Source of the DNA: Haloechinothrix halophila YIM 93223
GTDB taxonomy: Bacteria; Actinomycetota; Actinomycetes; Mycobacteriales; Pseudonocardiaceae
DNA length: 64,000 nucleotides
Direction of reading: 5' to 3'
Assembly (NCBI RefSeq): GCF_000504245.1
Contig: NZ_KI632509.1
Coordinates: forward strand, 991,723-1,055,722
A program made the translations under genes and the position numbers. The notes under the pieces are model-generated. The model made no database searches. It was not told where the DNA came from and saw only the letters and a program-made list of their open reading frames with translations. Positions within the stretch are counted from its first letter, which is position 1. Each line of letters starts with the position of its first letter. This document shows, piece after piece, positions 36,909 to 60,547 of this stretch.

Positions 36909-37850
36909 CTACTGCCCGGGCGAGCCGGTTCGCGCCATGCGTTCCCGCTGCGGGACGACGGTGTACTTCGGGTCGCGGGCGGAGGCCACACCAGCGGCGT
37001 AGACGCCGAAGCGGGTGCATACGCCCGCCGCGAGGTAGGCCGCGCCCGCGGCGGCGGCGGCGACTCTGCTGCGCTTGCTCAGCAACGACAGCCCCGCACC
37101 GAGGGCTGTCAGCGCCTTGCCAGCCTTGAGTAGCGTGCCAGCGCGCCCGCCGCGGTAGGTCTCCGAGACGACGCCGAGGTTGTGCTCCAGCCGGTGTCCC
37201 GCCGCCAGCTCGGCGGCGGCGCCCGCGAGACCGAGACGCCGCGCTGGCGCGGTCTCCGTTGCCGGAACCAGCAGCAGAGCGGCCCCCGCGCCACTGGTGG
37301 CCGCGCTGCCAGCGAACAGCACGGGCAGGTCACCACGTCCCTCATGCCAGGCGGGCGTCGCGGTGTCCGCGAGCAGCACCGCCGTGTAGGTGCACATCGC
37401 TGGCCCGAGCAGCCCGGCCGCGCCACCGGCGAGCGTGCCGATCGGTCGCAGCCGGCCGGTCAGCATCGAGGCAGCCGACGCCGTCGCGAGCCCGGAGAAC
37501 GGTGCCAGGATCCACGAGCCGACCGACAGCGGCGACGTCGGCTTGAACACCCGCAGCATGTACAGGAACCGCTCCGGCCTGCCGAGGTCGTGGATCAGCG
37601 CCGCCACACTCGCCAGTGACCCACCTGCCGCGACCAGCGTGCCCACGCGCGCCAGCTTCGGCAGGCCGGACACTCGCGCCATCGTGGCCATCGACGCCGA
37701 CGCGCCCGCCGTGCCGCCGAGGAACAGGTATAGCGGCACGTCTGGTTGCTCCCACGCCGGTTCCTTGACGATCGGCCTGCCGTAGTAGGAGCGGAACTCC
37801 GCGGGCTCCACCATGGCCCGCTCACGCCGGGACGGCTGCGCGCGGCTCAT
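36909..37850 (-). CDS. Formate dehydrogenase membrane anchor, NrfD/PsrC type
   Basis: A 313-residue membrane protein. After the conserved lead FRSYYGRPIVKEPAWEQPDVPLYLFLGG, about eight hydrophobic helices follow (for example IGTLAGGAAGLLGPAMCTYTAVLLA). This is the NrfD/PsrC fold, which moves electrons from the iron-sulfur subunit to the quinone pool without heme. It is the third gene of the cluster; its ATG at 37850 overlaps the stop of the iron-sulfur gene (ATGA). Use of NrfD rather than a cytochrome b subunit is common for actinobacterial formate dehydrogenases. The frame extends upstream to 37922 but without a better start. Confidence 0.88.
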   Translation of the reverse strand: MSRAQPSRRERAMVEPAEFRSYYGRPIVKEPAWEQPDVPLYLFLGGTAGASASMATMARVSGLPKLARVGTLVAAGGSLASVAALIHDLGRPERFLYMLRVFKPTSPLSVGSWILAPFSGLATASAASMLTGRLRPIGTLAGGAAGLLGPAMCTYTAVLLADTATPAWHEGRGDLPVLFAGSAATSGAGAALLLVPATETAPARRLGLAGAAAELAAGHRLEHNLGVVSETYRGGRAGTLLKAGKALTALGAGLSLLSKRSRVAAAAAGAAYLAAGVCTRFGVYAAGVASARDPKYTVVPQRERMARTGSPGQ

Positions 37851-38719
37851 CGCCGTGCCCCAGCGAACGACGCGACCACAGCCGCCGCGACACCCAGCGC
37901 CGCAGCGCCTGCCCGCCGCCACATCGCGGGCAGGTCCCGCGTGGTGACCACCGGGTCGGGCGGCAGGCCATACACCTCGGGCTCGTCCAGCAGCAGGAAG
38001 AACGCGCCGGTGCCGCCGACGCCGTCGTCCGGGTCGTCGCCGTACAGCCGCGCCTCGGTGACGCCGTCGGCGTGCAGCGCCTGCTTACGCTCCACCGCGC
38101 GCTGCCGCAGCTCGGACACCTCGCCGTACTGGATGGAGTCCGTCGGGCACGCCTTCGCGCACGCGGGTTCGAGCCCGTCACCGATGCGGTCGTAGCACAG
38201 CGTGCACTTGAACGCCCTGCCGTCGTCCTCCCGCTTCTCGATCACGCCGTACGGGCAGGCTGGCACGCAGTAGCCACAGCCGTTGCAGATGTCGGGCTGC
38301 ACCACGACGGTGTCGAACTCGGTGCGGAACAGCGCGCCGGTCGGGCAGACGTCGAGGCAGGCGGCGTGGGTGCAGTGCTTGCAGACGTCCGATGACATCA
38401 GCCACCGAACCCCGGTGTCGTCTTCCTGCTCCGGCGCACCGATCGTCGGCATCCCCAGGTTATCCACATCCGACTTGTTCACACGCGATGCGGGAACCTG
38501 CTGCTCGATGAACGCGACGTGCCGCCAGTTGTTCGCGCCGAGATCGCCGGTGTTGTCATAGGACAGTCCGAGTAAGTCCATTCCGGACGGATCATCTGGC
38601 GCGGGGACGGCGTTCCACTCCTTGCAGGCGACCTCGCACGCCTTGCAGCCGATACACACCGATGTGTCGGTGAAGAACCCCATGCGGGGCTGTGCGTCGG
38701 CGTACCCGGACTCGCTCAC
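37847..38719 (-). CDS. Formate dehydrogenase iron-sulfur subunit
   Basis: A 290-residue protein with four ferredoxin-type cysteine clusters: CIGCKACEVACKEWN (near residue 22), CKHCTHAACLDVCP, CNGCGYCVPACPYG, and CTLCYDR with CAKACP, together able to bind four 4Fe-4S clusters. A hydrophobic C-terminal segment (AALGVAAAVVASFAG) probably lies in the membrane and contacts the NrfD anchor. It carries electrons from the catalytic subunit to the quinone-reducing anchor. Its ATG overlaps the catalytic-subunit stop, and its stop overlaps the anchor start. Confidence 0.94.
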   Translation of the reverse strand: MSESGYADAQPRMGFFTDTSVCIGCKACEVACKEWNAVPAPDDPSGMDLLGLSYDNTGDLGANNWRHVAFIEQQVPASRVNKSDVDNLGMPTIGAPEQEDDTGVRWLMSSDVCKHCTHAACLDVCPTGALFRTEFDTVVVQPDICNGCGYCVPACPYGVIEKREDDGRAFKCTLCYDRIGDGLEPACAKACPTDSIQYGEVSELRQRAVERKQALHADGVTEARLYGDDPDDGVGGTGAFFLLLDEPEVYGLPPDPVVTTRDLPAMWRRAGAAALGVAAAVVASFAGARR

Positions 38720-41700
38720 GCCTCACTCCCTTCGACTCCCGCACGTCGCTGGTACTCCCGCACCAGCTCCGGCAATGCCGCGCCGCGTGGCCGCCTGCCT
38801 GGCCGGATGTCGCACGTCGCGGCCTTGGCCTCCTGGATGTGCACGTTCGGGTCGAGCACGACGGAAAGCAGGTCGTTCGCCGAGTCGCCGGTGGACAGTC
38901 CATTGGATCCCCAGTGATACGGCAGACCGACCTGGTGGATCGTTCTTCCCCGCACCCGCAGCGGCTTGATTCGCTCGGTGACGAGCACTCTCGCCTCGAT
39001 CGCGGTGCGCGCGGAGATGATCGTCGCCCAGCCGCCGTGCTCAAGACCGGTTTCCTCGGCGAGCTGCGGGGAGACCTCGCAGAAGAACTCCGGTTGCAGC
39101 TCGGAGAGATACGGCAGGCCCCGGCTCATGCCGCCCGCTGTGTGGTGCTCGGTGAGCCGGTAGGTGGTGAACACGTACGGATAGATCTCGTTCGCCACCG
39201 GGTTGTACCGGTTGTGCTCGCCGCCGAACGTCTGTCGTGCCGGGTTCGCCTGCTGGGTATAGAGCGGATTGTCTACTGGGGATTCGTGCGGCTCATAGTG
39301 TGTCGGGAGTGGACCGTCAGTCAGCCCCGCTGGTGCGAACAGCCATGCCTTGCCGTCGGCCTGCATGATGAATGGGTCCGAACCGGACAGTGCATCCTGT
39401 GCCCGCGCGCCCGCTGGCGGGGTGTAGTCCGGTGGCTTGGTTGCCTCGAAGTCCGGCACGTCGGGGCTGATCCACGTGCCCTTCTCGGCGTCCCACCAGA
39501 CGTAGCGTTTGCGCTCGCTCCACGGGTTGCCGTCCGGATCGGCCGAGGCCCGGTTGTAGAGGATCCGCCGGTTGGACGGCCATGCCCACGCCCAGCGCGA
39601 CGCTACCCAGTCCTGTTTGGCGCCGGGAACGCGGTCGGCCGCGTGGTTGTGGCCGTCGGCGTAGACGCCGCAGTAGATCCAGCAGCCACACGACGTCGAG
39701 CCGTCATCGGCCAGCGCGGTGAAGGTGGCCAACGGGCCGTCAGGGCCGGACCCGTTGATCTCGGCGAGCACCGATTCCGCGTCCGGCTCATCGGTCGGCC
39801 CATGCGTGGGGTACGACCAGGTCAGCTCCCGCAGCGGCACGTCGCGCGGGTCGGTGGAGTCGCGCAGCTTGTCCCGGATGAGACGGCCGAGGTGGTAGTA
39901 GAACCACAGCTCGCTGCGGGCGTCCCCGGGTGGCTCTACGGCCTTGTGGTGCCACTGCAACAGCCGCTGCGTGTTGGTGAAGCTGCCGTCCTTCTCCACG
40001 TGCGACGCCGCTGGCAGGAAGAAGACCTCGGTGCCGATCTCCTCGCTCGCCAGCTCCCCGGTGGCGATCTCGGGCCCGTCCTGCCAGAACGTCGCGCTCT
40101 CGATCAGCTGCATGTCGCGGACGACGAGCCAGTCCAGATTGGCCATGCCGAGACGCTGCAGCTTGCCATTGGCCGAGCCGACCGCGGGATTCTCCCCGGC
40201 GAGAAAGTAGCCCTTACACTTTCCTGACAGTTGGTTGTAGACGGTCTGATATGTACCGTGATCGCCGGTCAGCCGGGGCAGGTGATCGAACCGGAAGTCA
40301 TTCTCGGCGGTGGCGTGCTCGCCCCACCACGCCTTGAGCAAACTGACCACATAAGACCGCATATTGCCCCAGAACCCGGTCTTGCCCGCATCGAGCCCGA
40401 CGAACATGTCAAGGTCGAGGTGCTGGTGGGCGTGCGGCATCGGGATGTAGCCCGGCAGGATGTTGAATAGCGTCGGGATGTCGGTGGAGCCTTGAATGCT
40501 GGCGTGCCCGCGCAGTGCGAGGATGCCGCCGCCCGGCCTGCCGATGTTGCCGAGCAGCAGCTGCAGGATTGACGCCGCCCTGATGTACTGCACGCCGACC
40601 GTGTGGTGCGTCCAGCCGACCGAGTACACCCACGCCGTCGTTCTGCGCCGCCCGGAGTTCGCCGTGATGGCCTCGGCGACGTCGAGGAACTGCTCTGGCG
40701 ACACCCCGCAGATGTCGGCGACGACCTCGGGCGTGTAGCGCGCGTAGTGCCGCTTGAGCACCTGGAACACGCAGCGGGGATGTTCCAGCGTCTCGTCGGA
40801 ACCGCCCTCGTACGCCCAGCTCTCGACGTCGTACTCGCCTGTCTCCGGGTTGAAGCCGGAGAAGAGTCCGTCCAGGTCTTCTGTGTCGGCGAAGTCCTCC
40901 CGCAGAATCGCACCCGCGTTGGTGTAGGCGACGACGTAGTCGCGGAACTCCTTGCCGTTGCTCAGCACGTAATTGATCAACCCGCCGAGGAACGCGATGT
41001 CACTTCCGGCTCGCAGCCCGACGTGCTCATGTGCCAGCGCGCTCGTTCTGGTGAAGCGAGGATCGACGTGGATGATCTTCGCGCCCCGGTTCTTCGCCTC
41101 CATCACCCATTGGAAACCGACCGGATGGCACTCGGCCATGTTCGACCCCTGGATGACGATGCAGTCCGCGTTGGCGAGGTCTTGCTGGAACGTCGTAGCG
41201 CCGCCACGACCGAAGGAGGTCCCCAGACCGGGAACCGTGGCGGAGTGTCAAATGCGGGCCTGATTCTCGATCTGTACCGCGCCGAGCGACGTGTACAGCT
41301 TCTTCATCAGGTAGTTCTCTTCGTTGTCCAGCGTCGCGCCGCCGAGGCTGGCGATGCCCTCGGTGCGATTGAGCCGGACGCCGTTCTCGTCGGTGTCCTC
41401 CCAGGTCTCCCGCCGGGTCTTGATCACACGATCAGCGATCATGTCCATCGCCGTATCGAGTGGCAACGACTCCCACTCGGTCCCGTATGGCCGCCGATAC
41501 AGTACGCGGTCGACGCGGTTCGGGCTGGTGACGAGTTGCTTGCTCGCGGAGCCCTTCGGGCACAGCCTGCCGCGCGAGATCGGCGAATCCGGGTCACCCT
41601 CGATCTGGCTGACCGCGCCGTCTTTGACGTATACCCGCTGGCCACAGCCGACCGCGCAGTACGGGCAGACCGACTGGACGACACTGTCGGCGTCTTCGGT

Positions 41701-41817
41701 GCGAGCGCGCAGTCGCTTGGAGCGATCAGACTGGGCCGCAGCGCCGAGACCGAGGCGATCAGCCCCGGTCAGCTGCCGGTAGACCGGCCAGCCTTCGACC
41801 CACTGCCGAATACCCAC
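38716..41817 (-). CDS. Formate dehydrogenase catalytic subunit, selenocysteine-containing
   Basis: A protein of about 1033 residues when the in-frame TGA at 41250-41248 is read as selenocysteine (residue 190). Before it lies an N-terminal part with CPYCAVGCG and LCPKGS, the 4Fe-4S ligands, ending in NQARI; after it HSATVPGLGTSFGRGG continues without a gap. The sequence NQAR-x-Sec-HSATV is exactly that of FdnG/FdhA enzymes. The following sections bind bis-MGD molybdenum or tungsten cofactor. Automated ORF finding breaks the gene into two pieces at 41248. No twin-arginine signal is seen, so the enzyme is probably cytoplasmic-facing. The GTG start at 41817 has GGAGG upstream. Confidence 0.95.
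41201..41250 (-). promoter_or_regulatory. Bacterial SECIS element in formate dehydrogenase mRNA
   Basis: Immediately after the UGA (41250-41248), the RNA folds into an 8-bp lower stem CCGCCACG / CGUGGCGG, an upper stem GUUCCC / GGGGAC (one U-G pair) and an apical loop GGUCU. A ten-base bulge on the 3' side separates the stems. The GGUCU loop is the SelB-binding element known from E. coli fdhF and fdnG. It is read while coding for protein. Confidence 0.9.
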
Positions 41818-41903
41818 GCCGCCCTCCCGGACTTGGCTGCGGTTTCCCTTCTACCGTAAGGGGATCGGGAGCGACACGCACACTGTTCACACCGCGGTGG
41901 CGA

Positions 41904-43202
41904 TCACTCGCATCGGCGCACAGCCTCCAGCAGCCTGTCGTCGGCCTCGACGTCGATGGTGCGCAGGTCGAGCAGGCACCGTCCGCGCTCCACCCTGCCC
42001 ACCACCGGCGGCTCGCCCGCCCGCAACGCCGCCGCGTAGGACTCCGGGAGGCTCACCGCGGCGCTGGGCAGTGTCACGCCGGGCGCACCCCCACCGCCGA
42101 CCATCGCCTCGGACTCAACCGCCTGCGCGTCGACGTCGTACTCGCGCAGCCGCGCGGCCAACTCTTCGGCGCGCGCGGTGAGCGCGGTGGGGTCGGCGTT
42201 CAGGGCCCTGGTGACCGGCGGCTCCGGTCCGCGCAGCGTGGCCTCCAGCGCGGCGAGGGTGAGCTTGTCCACGCGCAGCGCACGGGCGGACGGGTGTCTG
42301 CGTAGTCGCGTAACCAGCGCGTCGTCGCCGAGGAGCAGTCCGGCCTGCGGGCCGCCGAGCAACTTGTCGCCGCTCGCGGTGACTAGGTTCGCGCCGTCGC
42401 GCAGCGCGCTCGTGGCATCCGGTTCGTCCGGCAGCGTGGGGTGCGGCGTGAGCAGTCCTGAGCCGATGTCGACGACCAGCGGCACGCCGAGCCCGGTCAA
42501 TTCGCGCACCGACGGCGTCTCGGTGAACCCGGCGACCAGGTAGTTCGACGGGTGCACCTTGAGCACGAACCCGGTGTCGGCGTTGATGGCGTCGGCGTAG
42601 TCGCGCGCCGTGGTGCGGTTGGTGGTGCCGACCTCGCGCAGCCGCGCGCCGGTCGATGCGAGCAGGTCGGGGATACGGAAGCCGTCGCCGATCTCGATCA
42701 GCTCGCCCCTGCTGATGACGATCTCGTTGCCTTGCGCGAGCGCCAGCGCGCAGAGCAGCAGTGCGGCGGCGTTGTTATTGACGACGTGCACCGCCGTGGC
42801 GTCCGGCACCGCGTTGCCGAGTGCGGCCAGCGCACCGCGTCCCCTGCGCGCGCGGCTGCCGGTGGCCAGGTCGAACTCGACGTCCGTTGTGCCGCTGGCG
42901 GCGTGGATGGCGTCCAGTGCGGCGGCCGACAGCGGTGCCCGGCCGAGGTTGGTGTGGACGAGCACGCCGGTCGCGTTGAGCACCGGATGGCACTGGCTCG
43001 CGGTGGGTGGCAGTGCGTCGAACGCCGCGTCCGCGACGTTATCCGGGCTGATTTCACCCGCGCGGGCACGTTGCTGCGCCGTGGTGATCGCGGCCTTGAC
43101 GACGTCACGACCGAGCGAGTCCTGTGCCTTCGCGAGGCGCGGCATGGCCAGCAGCGTGTCGGTCCCTGGAATGTGGCGGCGTGGGTCGGCGTGCTCGGTC
43201 AT
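41904..43202 (-). CDS. selA: L-seryl-tRNA(Sec) selenium transferase
   Basis: A 432-residue PLP enzyme that converts seryl-tRNA(Sec) to selenocysteyl-tRNA(Sec) using selenophosphate. Seen are VLNATGVLVHTNLGRAPLS near residue 70, RGELIEIGDGFRIPDLL, GTTNRTTARDY, VVDIGSGLL, and the PLP-binding lysine in SGDKLLGGPQAGLLLG near residue 285; all are SelA hallmarks. The ATG at 43202 has GGAG seven bases upstream, and lies only 18 bases after the tRNA-Sec 3' end, so both are probably on one transcript. The formate dehydrogenase gene follows 86 bases downstream. selB and selD are not in the window. Confidence 0.96.
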   Translation of the reverse strand: MTEHADPRRHIPGTDTLLAMPRLAKAQDSLGRDVVKAAITTAQQRARAGEISPDNVADAAFDALPPTASQCHPVLNATGVLVHTNLGRAPLSAAALDAIHAASGTTDVEFDLATGSRARRGRGALAALGNAVPDATAVHVVNNNAAALLLCALALAQGNEIVISRGELIEIGDGFRIPDLLASTGARLREVGTTNRTTARDYADAINADTGFVLKVHPSNYLVAGFTETPSVRELTGLGVPLVVDIGSGLLTPHPTLPDEPDATSALRDGANLVTASGDKLLGGPQAGLLLGDDALVTRLRRHPSARALRVDKLTLAALEATLRGPEPPVTRALNADPTALTARAEELAARLREYDVDAQAVESEAMVGGGGAPGVTLPSAAVSLPESYAAALRAGEPPVVGRVERGRCLLDLRTIDVEADDRLLEAVRRCE

Positions 43203-43220
43203 CGCGAGACTCCATGGGCA

Positions 43221-43315
43221 TGGCGGAGGCGGACGGGAATCGAACCCGCCAATGACAGGACCTGCCATTCAACGGTTTTGAAGACCGCGCCAGCCACCAG
43301 GCTAGATACGCCTCC
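43221..43315 (-). tRNA. selC: tRNA-Sec(UCA)
   Basis: A 95-nt tRNA including an encoded CCA. Acceptor strands GGAGGCGT / CCGCCTCC give an extended stem (seven pairs plus a possible mismatched eighth). The D-stem is six pairs (CTAGCC/GGCTGG) with a four-base loop, as in bacterial tRNA-Sec. The anticodon stem GCGGT/ACCGT closes CTTCAAA, giving anticodon UCA, complementary to UGA. A long variable arm (AATGGCAG...CTGTCATT) is present. These features identify the selenocysteine tRNA rather than a suppressor or tRNA-Ser. Confidence 0.97.
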
Positions 43316-43627: not shown

Positions 43628-44344
43628 ATGGGTCACAACTCTGTGCAACCGAACAGATTCTCGCGCAGGCGCGCGCTTGGCGCTGGCGCGCTGGCCGCGA
43701 CGGCAGGAGTCGTCGGGGTGCCCGCCGCGGCGGCGGTTCCGCCAGAAGGGGCGATGCATCCGGCGCATGCGTGGCGCAGACTGGTCGAAGGCAACGAACG
43801 GTTCATCGAGGCGCGACAGCAGCACCCGCATCAGGGCCTGCCGTGGCGCGAGACGCTTGTCGATGGCCAGGAGCCGTTCGCCTGCGTCCTCGGCTGTGCT
43901 GACTCGCGGGTGCCGCCGGAGCTGATCTTCGATCAGGGGCTCGGCGACCTGTTCACGGTACGCACCGCGGGCGAGGTACTGGACGAATCGATCATCGGCA
44001 GCATCGAGTACGCCGTCGAACACCTCAGCGTGCCGCTCGTCGTCGTCCTCGGTCACGAGAGCTGTGGCGCGGTCACCGCCGCGGTGGACCTGGTGCGCAG
44101 CGGCCACGGCGGCACGGGCTCCATCAGCACGTTGGTACGCGGCATCGAGGCCAGCGTGCTCAGTACGCCCCAGGACGATGACCCCGATGCGTTCCTCGCC
44201 GCCTGCATCGTGGCTCAGGCCCGACGCGTCGTCACCCAGCTGCGGGAACGCTCCGAACTGATCCGCGAAGCCGTCGACTCCCACCGCGTCGGCCTGGTGC
44301 CAGCCGTCTACGACCTGGATGAGTATCGGGTGACGCGCCGCTGA
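43628..44344 (+). CDS. Beta-class carbonic anhydrase with Tat signal
   Basis: A 238-residue exported zinc enzyme. The N-terminus SRRRALGAGALAATAGVVGVPAAAA has the twin-arginine motif and a cleavable signal, so it folds in the cytoplasm and is sent to the cell surface. The zinc ligands are in GCADSRVPPE (cysteine and catalytic Asp-Arg dyad, near residue 92) and VLGHESCGAV (His and Cys, near residue 146). It interconverts CO2 and bicarbonate. It is divergent from the formate dehydrogenase locus, whose product is CO2; a link is plausible but not shown. Confidence 0.93.
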   Translation: MGHNSVQPNRFSRRRALGAGALAATAGVVGVPAAAAVPPEGAMHPAHAWRRLVEGNERFIEARQQHPHQGLPWRETLVDGQEPFACVLGCADSRVPPELIFDQGLGDLFTVRTAGEVLDESIIGSIEYAVEHLSVPLVVVLGHESCGAVTAAVDLVRSGHGGTGSISTLVRGIEASVLSTPQDDDPDAFLAACIVAQARRVVTQLRERSELIREAVDSHRVGLVPAVYDLDEYRVTRR

Positions 44345-44464: not shown

Positions 44465-45298
44465 GTGACTGACCTGGAGTTCCGGGGCAAACGACCCAAG
44501 CGTGATCGTGCGCTGATCATGGCGATCATCAATCGCACGCCGGACTCCTTCTACGACCGAGGCACCACCTTCACGGCAGATGATGCGCTGGCCGCTGTCC
44601 GTCGCGCCGTCGCTGACGGCGCGGACGTCGTCGACATTGGCGGCGTCAAGGCTGGCCCCGGTGCCTCGGTCGGACCAGCGGAGGAAGCCGACCGGGTGTT
44701 ACCGCTGATCGAGTGCATCCGGCAGGAGTTCCCCGAGCTGGTGATCAGTATCGACACTTGGCGCGCGTCGGTCGGCAGGCAGGCGTGCGAGGCTGGCGCG
44801 GACCTGCTCAACGACACCTGGGCGGCGGCCGATCCGGGGCTTGCCGACGTCGCCGCCGAGTTCGGCGCGGGCTACGTCTGCTCGCACACCGGCGGCATCC
44901 CGCCGCGCACCAGGCCGCACCGCGTGCACTACGATGACGTCGTCGCCGACGTCCTCACCGAGACGACCACCCGCGCGGAGCAACTGCTCGCGTCCGGTGT
45001 GCCGCGCGAGGGCATCCTGATCGACCCGACCCACGATTTCGGCAAGAACACCTGGCACGGTCTTGAGCTACTGCGACGGGTGGATGAGCTGGTCGACAGT
45101 GGCTGGCCGGTGCTCATGGCGTTGTCCAACAAGGACTTCATTGGCGAGACGCTCGGCGTCGGGCTGCGCGAGCGCGTCGAGGGCACGCTGGCCGCGACGG
45201 CGTTCTCCGCCGCGGCGGGCGTGGCGATGTTCCGGGTGCACGAGGTCGCGGAAACCCGGCGCGTGCTGGAGACGGTGTCCACGCTGATTCGCGAGTAA
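44465..45298 (+). CDS. Dihydropteroate synthase-like protein (FolP2 type)
   Basis: A 277-residue TIM-barrel protein of the pterin-binding family. The opening MAIINRTPDSFYDRG is the DHPS signature (family form MGIxNxTPDSF), followed by GADVVDIGGVKAGPG, LVISIDTWRASVG, NDTW and IDPTHDFGKNTWHGLELLRR. M. tuberculosis has two such proteins: FolP1, the true sulfonamide target, and FolP2, which lacks DHPS activity. The sequence KAGPG rather than the ESTRPG motif at the DHPS pABA site resembles FolP2. The gene starts at a GTG at 44465 and has no folate-gene neighbours, so folate synthesis is not certain. Confidence 0.88.
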   Translation: MTDLEFRGKRPKRDRALIMAIINRTPDSFYDRGTTFTADDALAAVRRAVADGADVVDIGGVKAGPGASVGPAEEADRVLPLIECIRQEFPELVISIDTWRASVGRQACEAGADLLNDTWAAADPGLADVAAEFGAGYVCSHTGGIPPRTRPHRVHYDDVVADVLTETTTRAEQLLASGVPREGILIDPTHDFGKNTWHGLELLRRVDELVDSGWPVLMALSNKDFIGETLGVGLRERVEGTLAATAFSAAAGVAMFRVHEVAETRRVLETVSTLIRE

Positions 45299-45780: not shown

Positions 45781-47193
45781 ATGCTCGCGACTATGGGCAC
45801 ACACTTCGACGTGGTCGTCCTCGGGGCCGGGCCCGGTGGATATGTCGCCGCGATCAGGGCAGCGCAACTCGGCTTCTCCACGGCGATTGTCGAGGAGAAA
45901 TACTGGGGCGGGGTATGCCTCAACGTGGGGTGTATTCCCTCGAAGGCGCTGCTCCGCAACGCCGAGTTGGCGCACCTGTTCCACAACGACGCGAAGACGT
46001 TCGGCATCGAGGTCGATGGCACGGTGCGGTTCGACTACGGTGCCGCGTTCAAGCGCAGCCGCGACGTCGCCGATGGTCGCGTCAAGGGTGTGCACTACCT
46101 GATGAAGAAGAACAAGATCACCCAGTTCAACGGATGGGGTGAGTTCGCCGACGCCAACACGATGCGCGTCAGGCTGAGCGACGGCGGCAGCGAGACCATC
46201 ACCTTCGGCCACTGCATCATCGCCACCGGCGCGACGACGAAGCTGCTGCCTGGCACGTCGCTGTCCGAGCGGGTCGTGACCTATGAAGAGCAGATCATGA
46301 CCGAGCAGCTGCCGGAGAGCGTCGTGATCGCCGGTGCCGGGGCGATCGGCGTCGAGTTCGCGTATGTGCTGCACAACTACGGGGTGAAGGTCACCATCGT
46401 CGAATTCCTCGAACGGATGGTGCCGCTTGAGGACGCCGACGTCTCCAAGGAGCTGGCCAAGCGCTACAAGCGGATGGGCGTCGATGTGCTGACTGGCACC
46501 CGGGTCGACGCTATCGACGACTCCGGCGCGAAGGTGTCGGTAACAGTCACACAGAACGGTGAACAGCGCACGCTGGAGACCGACAAGGTGCTGCAGGCGA
46601 TCGGCTTCCAACCACGAGTCGAGGGCTACGGGCTGGAGAACACCGGTGTCGCGCTGACCGAGCGCGGTGCGATCGACATCGACGACTACGGCCGGACGTC
46701 GGTGCCGAACATCTTCGCGATCGGCGACGTCACGGCGAAGCTGATGCTCGCCCACACGGCTGAAGCCATGGGCGTGGTCGCCGCGGAGAGCATCGCTGGC
46801 GCGGAGACCATGCCGGTGGAGTACGTGATGGTCCCGCGTGCGACGTACTGCCAACCGCAGATCGCCAGCTTCGGTTACACCGAGGAGCAGGCCCGCGAGC
46901 TGGGTTACGACGTGCAGGTGGCCAAGTTCCCGTTCATGGCCAACGGCAAGGCGCATGGCCTCGGCGACTCCACCGGGTTCGTGAAGCTGATCAGCGACGG
47001 CCGCTACGGCGAGCTACTCGGTGGCCACCTGATCGGGCCGGAGGTGACCGAGCTGCTACCCGAGCTGACGCTGGCGCAGCAGTGGGACCTGACCGTGCAC
47101 GAGGTCGCGCGTAACGTGCACGCCCACCCGACGCTGACCGAGGCGGTAAAGGAAGCCGTCCACGGCCTCGCGGGGCACATGATCAACATGTAA
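45781..47193 (+). CDS. lpd: Dihydrolipoamide dehydrogenase
   Basis: A 470-residue flavoprotein. The FAD motif is [21 protein letters not shown], the redox pair is [17 protein letters not shown] (CxxxxC), the NAD motif is [14 protein letters not shown], and the C-terminal catalytic histidine-glutamate pair is [12 protein letters not shown]. The sequence is very similar to M. tuberculosis LpdC, the E3 of pyruvate and branched-chain dehydrogenases and of the peroxynitrite reductase system. In mycobacteria the protein begins near MTHYDVVV, matching the second ATG at 45793; the ATG at 45781 has the better ribosome site, so either may be used. Confidence 0.95.
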
Positions 47194-47309
47194 GAGGAAA
47201 CCCGCTGTGAAGCACCGGATCTTGATGCTGTGTGGTTACACGTATCGCCAGAACGCATCATGATCCGTCGACCCGCTAAATGTCAGTGGTCGGTCGTACT
47301 GTCCACGCC

Positions 47310-47801
47310 ATGACGACTTGGACAGAGTTCACCGCCGACGCACCGAGGATTGCCGAGATCTTCGGTCGACGTCATGCGGCCACGCACAACCTCTGCATGC
47401 TGGCGACGCTTCGCGCGGATGGGTCGCCGCGGATCAGCCCAATGGAGCCGAGGGTTTTCGAAGGTCAGTTGTGGCTCGTCGGCATGCCGAACACCACGAA
47501 GTTCCACGATCTCGCCCGTGATCCACGCTTCTGTTTGCACACCGCGACCGTCGACACGCAAGTAAGCGACGGCGACGCGAAGGTATGGGGCGTCGTGCGC
47601 AACGTCCAGGACATGGAGCTGCAGCAGCGGTTCGCGGCCGACTTGTTCGAGGACATCGAGCTTGACTTGCGCGGGCAGGAGTTCGACCCGTTCTACGCTG
47701 CCGATCTGACCGGTGCGTCCTCGGTGGAGATCCGGGATGGTGGCCTGGATATCACCATTTGGAAGCCGGGCGAGCCGGAACGGGTGGTGCGGAAGACGTA
47801 A
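47310..47801 (+). CDS. Pyridoxamine 5'-phosphate oxidase-family protein
   Basis: A 163-residue split-barrel flavin-binding protein. MLATLRADGSPRISPMEPRVFEGQLWLVGMPNTTKFHDLARDPRFCLH is the typical PPOX/FMN-binding beginning, binding FMN or F420. The rest (DAKVWGVVRNVQD, ELDLRGQEFDPFYAADLTGASSVEI) includes an acidic middle. The start at 47310 (ATGACGACTTGG) gives a normal family length; a longer frame from 47280 is possible. No operon partner is seen. Function is unknown, since members reduce F420, oxidise PNP, or act on other compounds. Confidence 0.85.
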   Translation: MTTWTEFTADAPRIAEIFGRRHAATHNLCMLATLRADGSPRISPMEPRVFEGQLWLVGMPNTTKFHDLARDPRFCLHTATVDTQVSDGDAKVWGVVRNVQDMELQQRFAADLFEDIELDLRGQEFDPFYAADLTGASSVEIRDGGLDITIWKPGEPERVVRKT

Positions 47802-47826
47802 CCGCCGCTGATGATTGGTCCGCGTG

Positions 47827-47927
47827 CTCGGCGTGTTGATCAGGGACCCTGCTGGTAGGCCCAGAGTCTGTCTGATATGTCCGGTTGTCATGGTTCTCAG
47901 CGCAGGGTCCCTGATCAACACGCCGAG
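47827..47927. repeat. Long-armed palindromic intergenic element (copy 1)
   Basis: Perfect 26-bp inverted arms (from CTCGGCGTGTTGATC and ending with GACCCTGC) are separated by 49 bases, between two plus-strand genes. Two similar elements occur at 55426-55506 and 62799-62885. All share GTTGATC at the outer end of the arm and a (C)CTGC inner end, but their middles differ. The rest of the 47802-48128 gap shows no gene. Confidence 0.85.
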
Positions 47928-48128
47928 TTAGCCGCAGCGCGCACCGGTCGTCGATCGCGGCAGAGTATGCCGTTGGCGCAGCCGACGCGTCTCGCAGCGC
48001 GTCGTGTCCCGATGACGAGTGGCGAGGCCGTGGCGTGGCAGCCCCCTCCATGTGCGTGAGTCAGATTACTGGCGCGTAGCTTTAGACTGACTCGAGTCGT
48101 CATGCCGCTACCCAACGAGGAGGTTTCC

Positions 48129-55506: not shown

Positions 55507-55659
55507 ATATCGCTGGGCAGTCGCGCCGGATGACCGACGACGCCGAGTTGTGTGCACCGAAAGCGGTCTTCACCACACCTCCGACGTCGGGGAGTAGACG
55601 TCGGAGGCGTCGGCGCGTACGTTGATCCCGACGACAATTCCATAACGGGCCGCATGAGC

Positions 55660-55838
55660 CGGAGCGGGAGAGTCCTCGTGTTCGCAGCGAGGCGCCGAAG
55701 GAGCAAGCTCCCCGCCAAACTCTCAGGTACCCATACCGCTTCAGGCCAGGCCACTCTGAAAAGCAGGCGTTCGTCGCCTCACCCACGGTGCAAGCCGGCG
55801 CGTCCGGTGAAGCTCTCAGGTTCATGACAGAGGGGGAG
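55660..55838 (+). promoter_or_regulatory. Tandem glycine riboswitch
   Basis: The first aptamer runs from GAGCGGGAGAGTCC to CAAACTCTCAGGTACCC, with the conserved GCGCCGAAGGAGCAAGCTCCCCGCC inside. The second runs from CCACTCTGAAAAGC through CACCCACGGTGCAAGCC to GAAGCTCTCAGGTTCATGACAGAG. Both end in the CTCTCAGGT...GACAGAG-type 3' stem. This is the known gcvT RNA, which binds glycine cooperatively and turns on glycine-catabolism genes. The gcvT-gcvH-glyA-sdaA genes follow. Confidence 0.95.
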
Positions 55839-60238: not shown

Positions 60239-60310
60239 GTTTGGCCTGGTGGGGTGGCGGCTGGAGACCTGACCACACCCAGTGTCGGCGTGACCTTTAC
60301 ACTGGAAGAC

Positions 60311-60398
60311 GGACCCCGCGCGGCGTCCATCCTGTGAACCTCCCCAGGGCCGGAAGGCAGCAAGGATAAGCAGGCTCTGACGGGTGCGCGGGGTCCCC
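60311..60398 (+). ncRNA. ffs: Signal recognition particle RNA, small bacterial type
   Basis: GGACCCCGCG and CGCGGGGTCC pair at the two ends. The middle holds the conserved domain IV, with CCCCAGGGCCGGAAGGCAGC (loop GGAA and asymmetric AGCA), which binds Ffh. About 88 nt fits the small 4.5S type of actinomycetes. The gene lies just upstream of dnaX, a common gene order in this phylum. No gene overlaps it, and the 149 bases to dnaX show no reading frame. Confidence 0.96.
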
Positions 60399-60547
60399 TT
60401 ATGTCTTCGTGCGGTCGCATGCGTCAGGGGCGTCAGGCCCAGGGGCCGATGCCGCCTTCAGTCGCGCTGGCCATGGGAGCCGTTACTGGGCGGACGCGAA
60501 GCGTGGGTAGCAGCGCCAAGATCACCGGATGCCGGTACGCTCGCGGC

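Follow-up and report, generated by a model that had tools for sequence, protein, structure and literature searches.

A split selenocysteine gene set in Haloechinothrix halophila: remnants of selB beside a formate dehydrogenase and of selA in a second cluster

We have analyzed a stretch of 64,000 nt (the window) from Haloechinothrix halophila YIM 93223, positions 991723–1055722 of a 5.55 Mb chromosome which is available as a single contig with 98.9% completeness. It contains a group of genes for the use of selenocysteine (Sec), namely a tRNA for this amino acid (tRNA-Sec), selA and a formate dehydrogenase (FDH). All of them are on the minus strand, exactly at the positions given in an earlier note made from the sequence alone. 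The tRNA-Sec gene (43221–43315) has 95 nt and the anticodon UCA (TCA in DNA), as that note claimed: it is recognized by ARAGORN and scores 79.7 bits against Rfam RF01852, with a cut-off of 47. About 20 bases separate it from selA (41904–43202), which codes for a 432 amino acid L-seryl-tRNA(Sec) selenium transferase. The assignment to selA was also right, with 429.9 bits against TIGR00474 (cut-off 267.9), and this is the single selA over the cut-off in the whole genome. The FDH genes come next. Starting with GTG, fdhA (38716–41817) codes for the catalytic subunit, 1033 residues with one UGA. Its stop codon is overlapped by fdhB (37847–38719), which codes for an iron-sulfur subunit with ferredoxin-type Fer4 domains (Pfam); its score against TIGR01582, the FDH beta subunit model, is 168.9 bits, under the cut-off of 334.7. 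The last gene, fdhC (36909–37922), codes for an NrfD-type membrane subunit, with PF03916 and PF14589 over their cut-offs.

Between selA and fdhA there is a remnant of selB, 27 nt long (41887–41913, minus strand), which overlaps the selA stop codon. Reading from 41913 to 41887, its sequence is ATGCGAGTGATCGCCACCGCGGTGTGA, which corresponds to eight codons, MRVIATAV, followed by a stop; at the same place, the selB gene of a congener begins with MRVIATAGHVDHGK. Both edges of each deleted gene were aligned with intact relatives. The break is found near 41891–41893, and the bases beyond it match those around and after the stop codon of the congener selB, so about 1.73 kb are missing.

The only selB of the genome is found at 2953908–2955671, about 1.92 Mb from the block in the window. 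It scores 269.4 bits against TIGR00475 (cut-off 242.25) and has both the GTPase, EF-Tu-like domain (PF00009) and the C-terminal winged-helix domain (PF09107). It lies directly behind a second tRNA-Sec gene, and we shall refer to the genes in the window as cluster A and to this second group as cluster B. Cluster B has a scar of its own. The stretch between tRNA-Sec and selB, ATGGAGGATGTTCGACGGCGGATTCCGCGCACAGACGCCGTGTTGGCG followed by GCGCGGGGAGGAGCCTGA, amounts to 21 codons. It opens with the first 16 codons of selA, MEDVRRRIPRTDAVLA, whose counterpart in the congener G050 is MDDVRRRIPRTDAVLA, and ends in a short tail, the stop codon of which shares bases with the start of selB (TGATG). Compared with G050, where the order tRNASec-selA-selB is intact, about 1.24 kb of selA are missing. 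Both scars can be read directly in the sequence. Neither the selB remnant nor the second tRNA-Sec had been noticed in the earlier note. As each cluster lacks the gene kept by the other, the deletions are reciprocal and the two clusters must complement each other.

Two divergent homologous clusters could mislead an assembler, and the scars might then be places where two intact clusters have been mis-joined. We consider such errors very improbable: in each scar the start of a gene is joined to its own end, with no swap between A and B, in a genome assembled as one contig of the completeness given above. A similar selB scar is present in another genus (G094/L018, see below). In addition, the bases of both scars are unlike those of every relative compared, so they have not been copied from another cluster.

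The rest of the machinery is present as well. A single SelD is encoded at 47010–47936 (G000:C1, where G000 is the present genome), with 366.5 bits against TIGR00476, about 0.99 Mb from the block. SelA, SelB, tRNA-Sec (selC), SelD and a Sec insertion sequence (SECIS) have thus all been found, and with SelB and SelD on the same chromosome the Sec-decoding trait is complete. The earlier note had proposed a search for selB and selD, whose absence would have spoken against a working Sec locus; both genes are there. There are two tRNA-Sec genes in the genome, copy A in the window (79.7 bits) and copy B directly upstream of selB (80.9 bits). They differ at 12 of their 95 bases, and both fold fully paired.

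Three congeners (G003, G082 and G050) have been compared at the same site. Upstream of the Sec genes, the window contains a divergent beta-carbonic anhydrase gene (43628–44344, plus strand; PF00484, 128.2 bits), whose product has an export-like signal at its N-terminus, and a dihydropteroate synthase (DHPS) gene (44465–45298, plus strand; TIGR01496, 282 bits), which we have used as a synteny marker. In G003 and G082 the DHPS and carbonic anhydrase genes are followed by a divergent and intact tRNASec-selA-selB-fdhABC cluster. The fdhABC, carbonic anhydrase and DHPS genes are syntenic in all three congeners, with identities of 81–93%, and two of them also have tRNA-selA-selB there. The selA gene in the window is 87–90% identical to those of two congeners and forms a fully supported group with those of G003 and G082; copy A of tRNA-Sec shows 2–3 differences from the congeners' copy A. 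This synteny at the same site indicates that cluster A is inherited vertically. In all four congeners, counting the present genome, the carbonic anhydrase gene is divergent from the Sec cluster; such a conserved neighbour suggests a link with formate/CO2 metabolism.

The earlier note had taken the proximity of tRNA-Sec, selA and their client gene as the sign of a transferable unit. A self-contained Sec island gained horizontally would agree with this proximity, and also with the compact clusters of relatives, which include selB and often selD; there are reports of such clusters being transferred among bacteria (PMC1794560, PMC5029168). The block, on the other hand, is not self-sufficient, as selB and selD are far from it. 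No mobile-element genes were seen in it, and nothing shows that it has moved horizontally. Given also the synteny just described, an island appears quite improbable.

The situation is different for SelB. The remote SelB of the present genome shares only about 55–60% identity with the local SelB proteins of G003 and G082, and a SelB clade restricted to the four congeners is rejected (p-AU 0.001). This indicates that the SelB which has been kept belongs to a lineage other than the local one. At 2.95 Mb, a Mutator-type transposase gene follows selB at a distance of about 0.6 kb, so one might think that a tRNA-selB segment was simply transposed from the window, with no replacement by a second cluster. 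This possibility is hardly credible: besides the rejected common origin of SelB within the genus, the remote and local tRNA-Sec genes are clearly different, and at the remote site tRNA and selB are separated by a selA scar.

G050 represents yet another state. Its cluster A has lost tRNA, selA and selB, leaving about 407 bp between the carbonic anhydrase gene and fdhA, while fdhABC is kept together with the UGA codon. Its cluster B is intact, and the SelB encoded there is 80% identical to that of the present genome. Since the UGA-containing fdhABC is kept with cluster B machinery only, cluster B is apparently sufficient for this FDH, which suggests that its machinery can serve the FDH of cluster A. 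Three states are therefore found in the genus: cluster A intact (two genomes), A emptied with B intact (one), and the half-and-half arrangement of the present genome.

We now turn to the FDH itself. The frame from 41817 to 38716 is free of internal stops, except for one TGA at codon 190 (41248–41250). Read through this codon, the product scores 1934.5 bits against NF041513, the NCBI model for actinobacterial formate dehydrogenase (cut-off 1400), and 952.4 bits against TIGR01553, formate dehydrogenase-N alpha (cut-off 814.2); the fragment downstream of the UGA gives only 751.5 bits with the latter. In the Desulfovibrio gigas FDH (1h0h, HQARI-X-HSATV) codon 190 is aligned with the catalytic residue, and in 9qm0 with the Sec/Cys position, so the UGA is at the exact catalytic Sec position, as the earlier note proposed. 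The same note warned that the gene would be mis-annotated as two truncated genes. Plain calling of open reading frames does split fdhA, but a curated model of the full-length protein, NF041513, is available at NCBI.

Among the 85 FDH genes compared, the Sec codon is TGA in 66, TAG in 17 and TGC in two. The TAG codon is found in L021, L022, L027, L033, L036, L041, L056, L058, L059, L063, L073, L075, L076, L083, L088, L089 and L091. All except L056, a Frankiales metagenome bin, come from named Geodermatophilaceae (16 of the 17). This is consistent with the use of UAG for Sec which has been described in Blastococcus (PMC5330540).

A SECIS hairpin follows the UGA (41201–41243, minus strand). Its apical stem-loop, GGUUCCC-GGUCU-GGGGACC, occupies 41218–41236, and the fold of the window sequence lengthens the hairpin further. 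Folding energy by itself is weak (z = -1.56), so the evidence has been taken from relatives and pair counts. Across 36 distinct relatives, 94.8% of the pairs in the apical stem are kept. The middle pair (columns 18–30) appears as five standard types, CG, UA, UG, GC and GU, which amounts to covariation, and shifted versions of the structure lose this feature. The lower stem differs among species. The SECIS with a GGUCU loop predicted in the earlier note is thus borne out by both the fold and the covariation. From the position of the codon and the conserved hairpin, we infer that UGA 190 is decoded as selenocysteine.

The ratio of nonsynonymous to synonymous substitutions (dN/dS) against the congeners is 0.11–0.15 upstream of the UGA and about 0.11 downstream. 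Similarly low values on both sides are as expected under read-through, and they indicate that fdhA is under purifying selection before and after the UGA. One could suppose that fdhA is a pseudogene, or that only a 189-residue fragment is made, with a split machinery which no longer works. The machinery is indeed fragmented and FdhA has an internal loss of 45 residues, considered below. Nevertheless, the low dN/dS extends past the UGA, fdhB and fdhC are intact, the SECIS pairs are kept, and SelA, SelD and SelB are all intact, the last one with its two domains. A pseudogene is therefore unlikely.

A twin-arginine signal was looked for by eye at the N-terminus of FdhA, and none was seen; the enzyme may accordingly be oriented towards the cytoplasm. 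The second FDH of the G094 genome (L118:2631) does have such a signal, TRREFLGLGA. About 960 residues of the catalytic subunit can be aligned with Escherichia coli FdnG and the W/Mo FDHs of Desulfovibrio (1kqf, 1h0h, 9qm0), with which it shares the UGA at the catalytic Sec position. Unlike those enzymes, the present FDH has an NrfD-type membrane subunit and no twin-arginine signal that we could see.

Taken together, the data are best explained by a split Sec machinery: very probably, the native cluster A has lost selB, a second cluster B has lost selA, and the two clusters complement each other. Cluster A would originally have been tRNASec-selA-selB-fdhABC, native to the genus, with selB later reduced to eight codons. 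Cluster B, at 2.95 Mb, would have been tRNASec-selA-selB, with a SelB of a different lineage, before its selA was reduced to 21 codons. The SelA of cluster A would make Sec-tRNA on one or both tRNA-Sec species, with selenophosphate from the single SelD (47 kb). The SelB of cluster B would deliver this Sec-tRNA to the SECIS behind UGA 190 of fdhA, and the product would be a membrane-anchored formate dehydrogenase, FdhABC. We infer from gene content that this lineage once had both clusters intact at the same time, that their machinery is expressed, and that the FDH of cluster A is served by the SelB of cluster B.

Several observations do not favour this explanation. The SelA tree under the constraint used for SelB gives p-AU 0.434, so it does not separate the lineages of clusters A and B. 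The regions flanking cluster B in the present genome and in G050 share no homology. G050 is a draft assembly, 89% complete, which makes the absences in it weaker. Finally, FdhA lacks a loop of about 45 residues (window 40792–40806, around residue 340) which is found in three congeners and most relatives, and its loss may have reduced the function of the enzyme. We have considered this gap as a possible sign of decay. The loop is also missing from the FdhA of L034, which gives it the appearance of a variable insert, and we have judged the gap to be a difference in a variable loop.

The kind of locus described here is known and common; the unusual feature is its split state with reciprocal scars. 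An FDH of the NF041513 family with selABCD has been published, for example, in Streptomyces incarnatus (PMC4498112), with the same machinery, and close relatives with this FDH have an identical order, tRNASec-selA-selB-fdhABC. In comparison with the S. incarnatus type, the present locus has lost its selB, and a distant second cluster supplies this gene. The earlier note considered selenoproteins rare in actinomycetes, which is not the case: tRNA-Sec is found in 208 of 397 genomes sampled evenly across the phylum (52%) and in 203 of the 299 genomes of the family (68%). SelA is over the cut-off in 198 of these 299 genomes, and the FDH family is present in 174; nearly all the matches listed have one in-frame TGA. 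In fact, an early survey placed Actinobacteria among the phyla rich in selenoproteins (PMC1794560).

Two copies of tRNA-Sec are much less frequent: among the 203 genomes of the family with tRNA-Sec, only the present one, G094 and G270 have them. Bacteria with two non-identical copies which keep their pairing are also listed in Table 3 of PMC5330540. They are clostridia and one enterobacterium, and that section of the paper mentions no reciprocal loss of selA and selB. A limited literature search found no report of reciprocal loss of Sec genes.

The closest parallel is G094, a Kibdelosporangium-like genome (JOAA01; L018, L119, L118). Its first cluster is tRNASec-selA-fdhABC with a selB scar, a start followed by HVIA and a stop, between selA and fdhA. 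Its second cluster, tRNASec-selB-selD, has a foreign SelB, which groups with Phytoactinopolyspora. It differs from the present genome in that its second tRNA and the selB of that cluster have no selA scar between them, and in that it contains a further SelB homologue. G094 is a separate lineage, so its selB scar is apparently an independent event. We have dropped an apparent transfer to Rhodococcus rhodnii (L018 and L119, record JOAA01000042.1): the selA of this record matches that of G094, which belongs to the same family as H. halophila, and the name of the record is probably wrong. Additional SelB homologues of other lineages are found in two genomes which already have one, L138 (G082:C606) and L140 (G094:C21). 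The extra copy of G082 is 76% identical to that of G094; these homologues may be foreign acquisitions or contamination.

In three Actinomadura genomes (loci L037, L053 and L066), no selB is found beside selA, and SelB is encoded elsewhere. Their selA is directly convergent to fdhA, while in relatives these two genes are separated by selD and selB. The scattering of Sec genes is therefore recurrent, and matching scars on both sides have been seen only in the present genome. The window also contains, on the plus strand, a glycine riboswitch aptamer (55655–55748) and a small signal recognition particle RNA (60308–60402), both over their Rfam thresholds.

In summary, it seems likely that reciprocal and clean internal deletions have produced a chimeric machinery in which SelA and SelB of different lineages depend on each other, and that replacement by a foreign SelB is recurrent in the family. 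In that case, the scars capture the replacement of a translation factor part-way. The states found among the congeners would be a natural test of whether SelB, tRNA-Sec and SECIS of one lineage can stand in for those of another, and of the ways in which the use of Sec can persist once its gene cluster breaks up.

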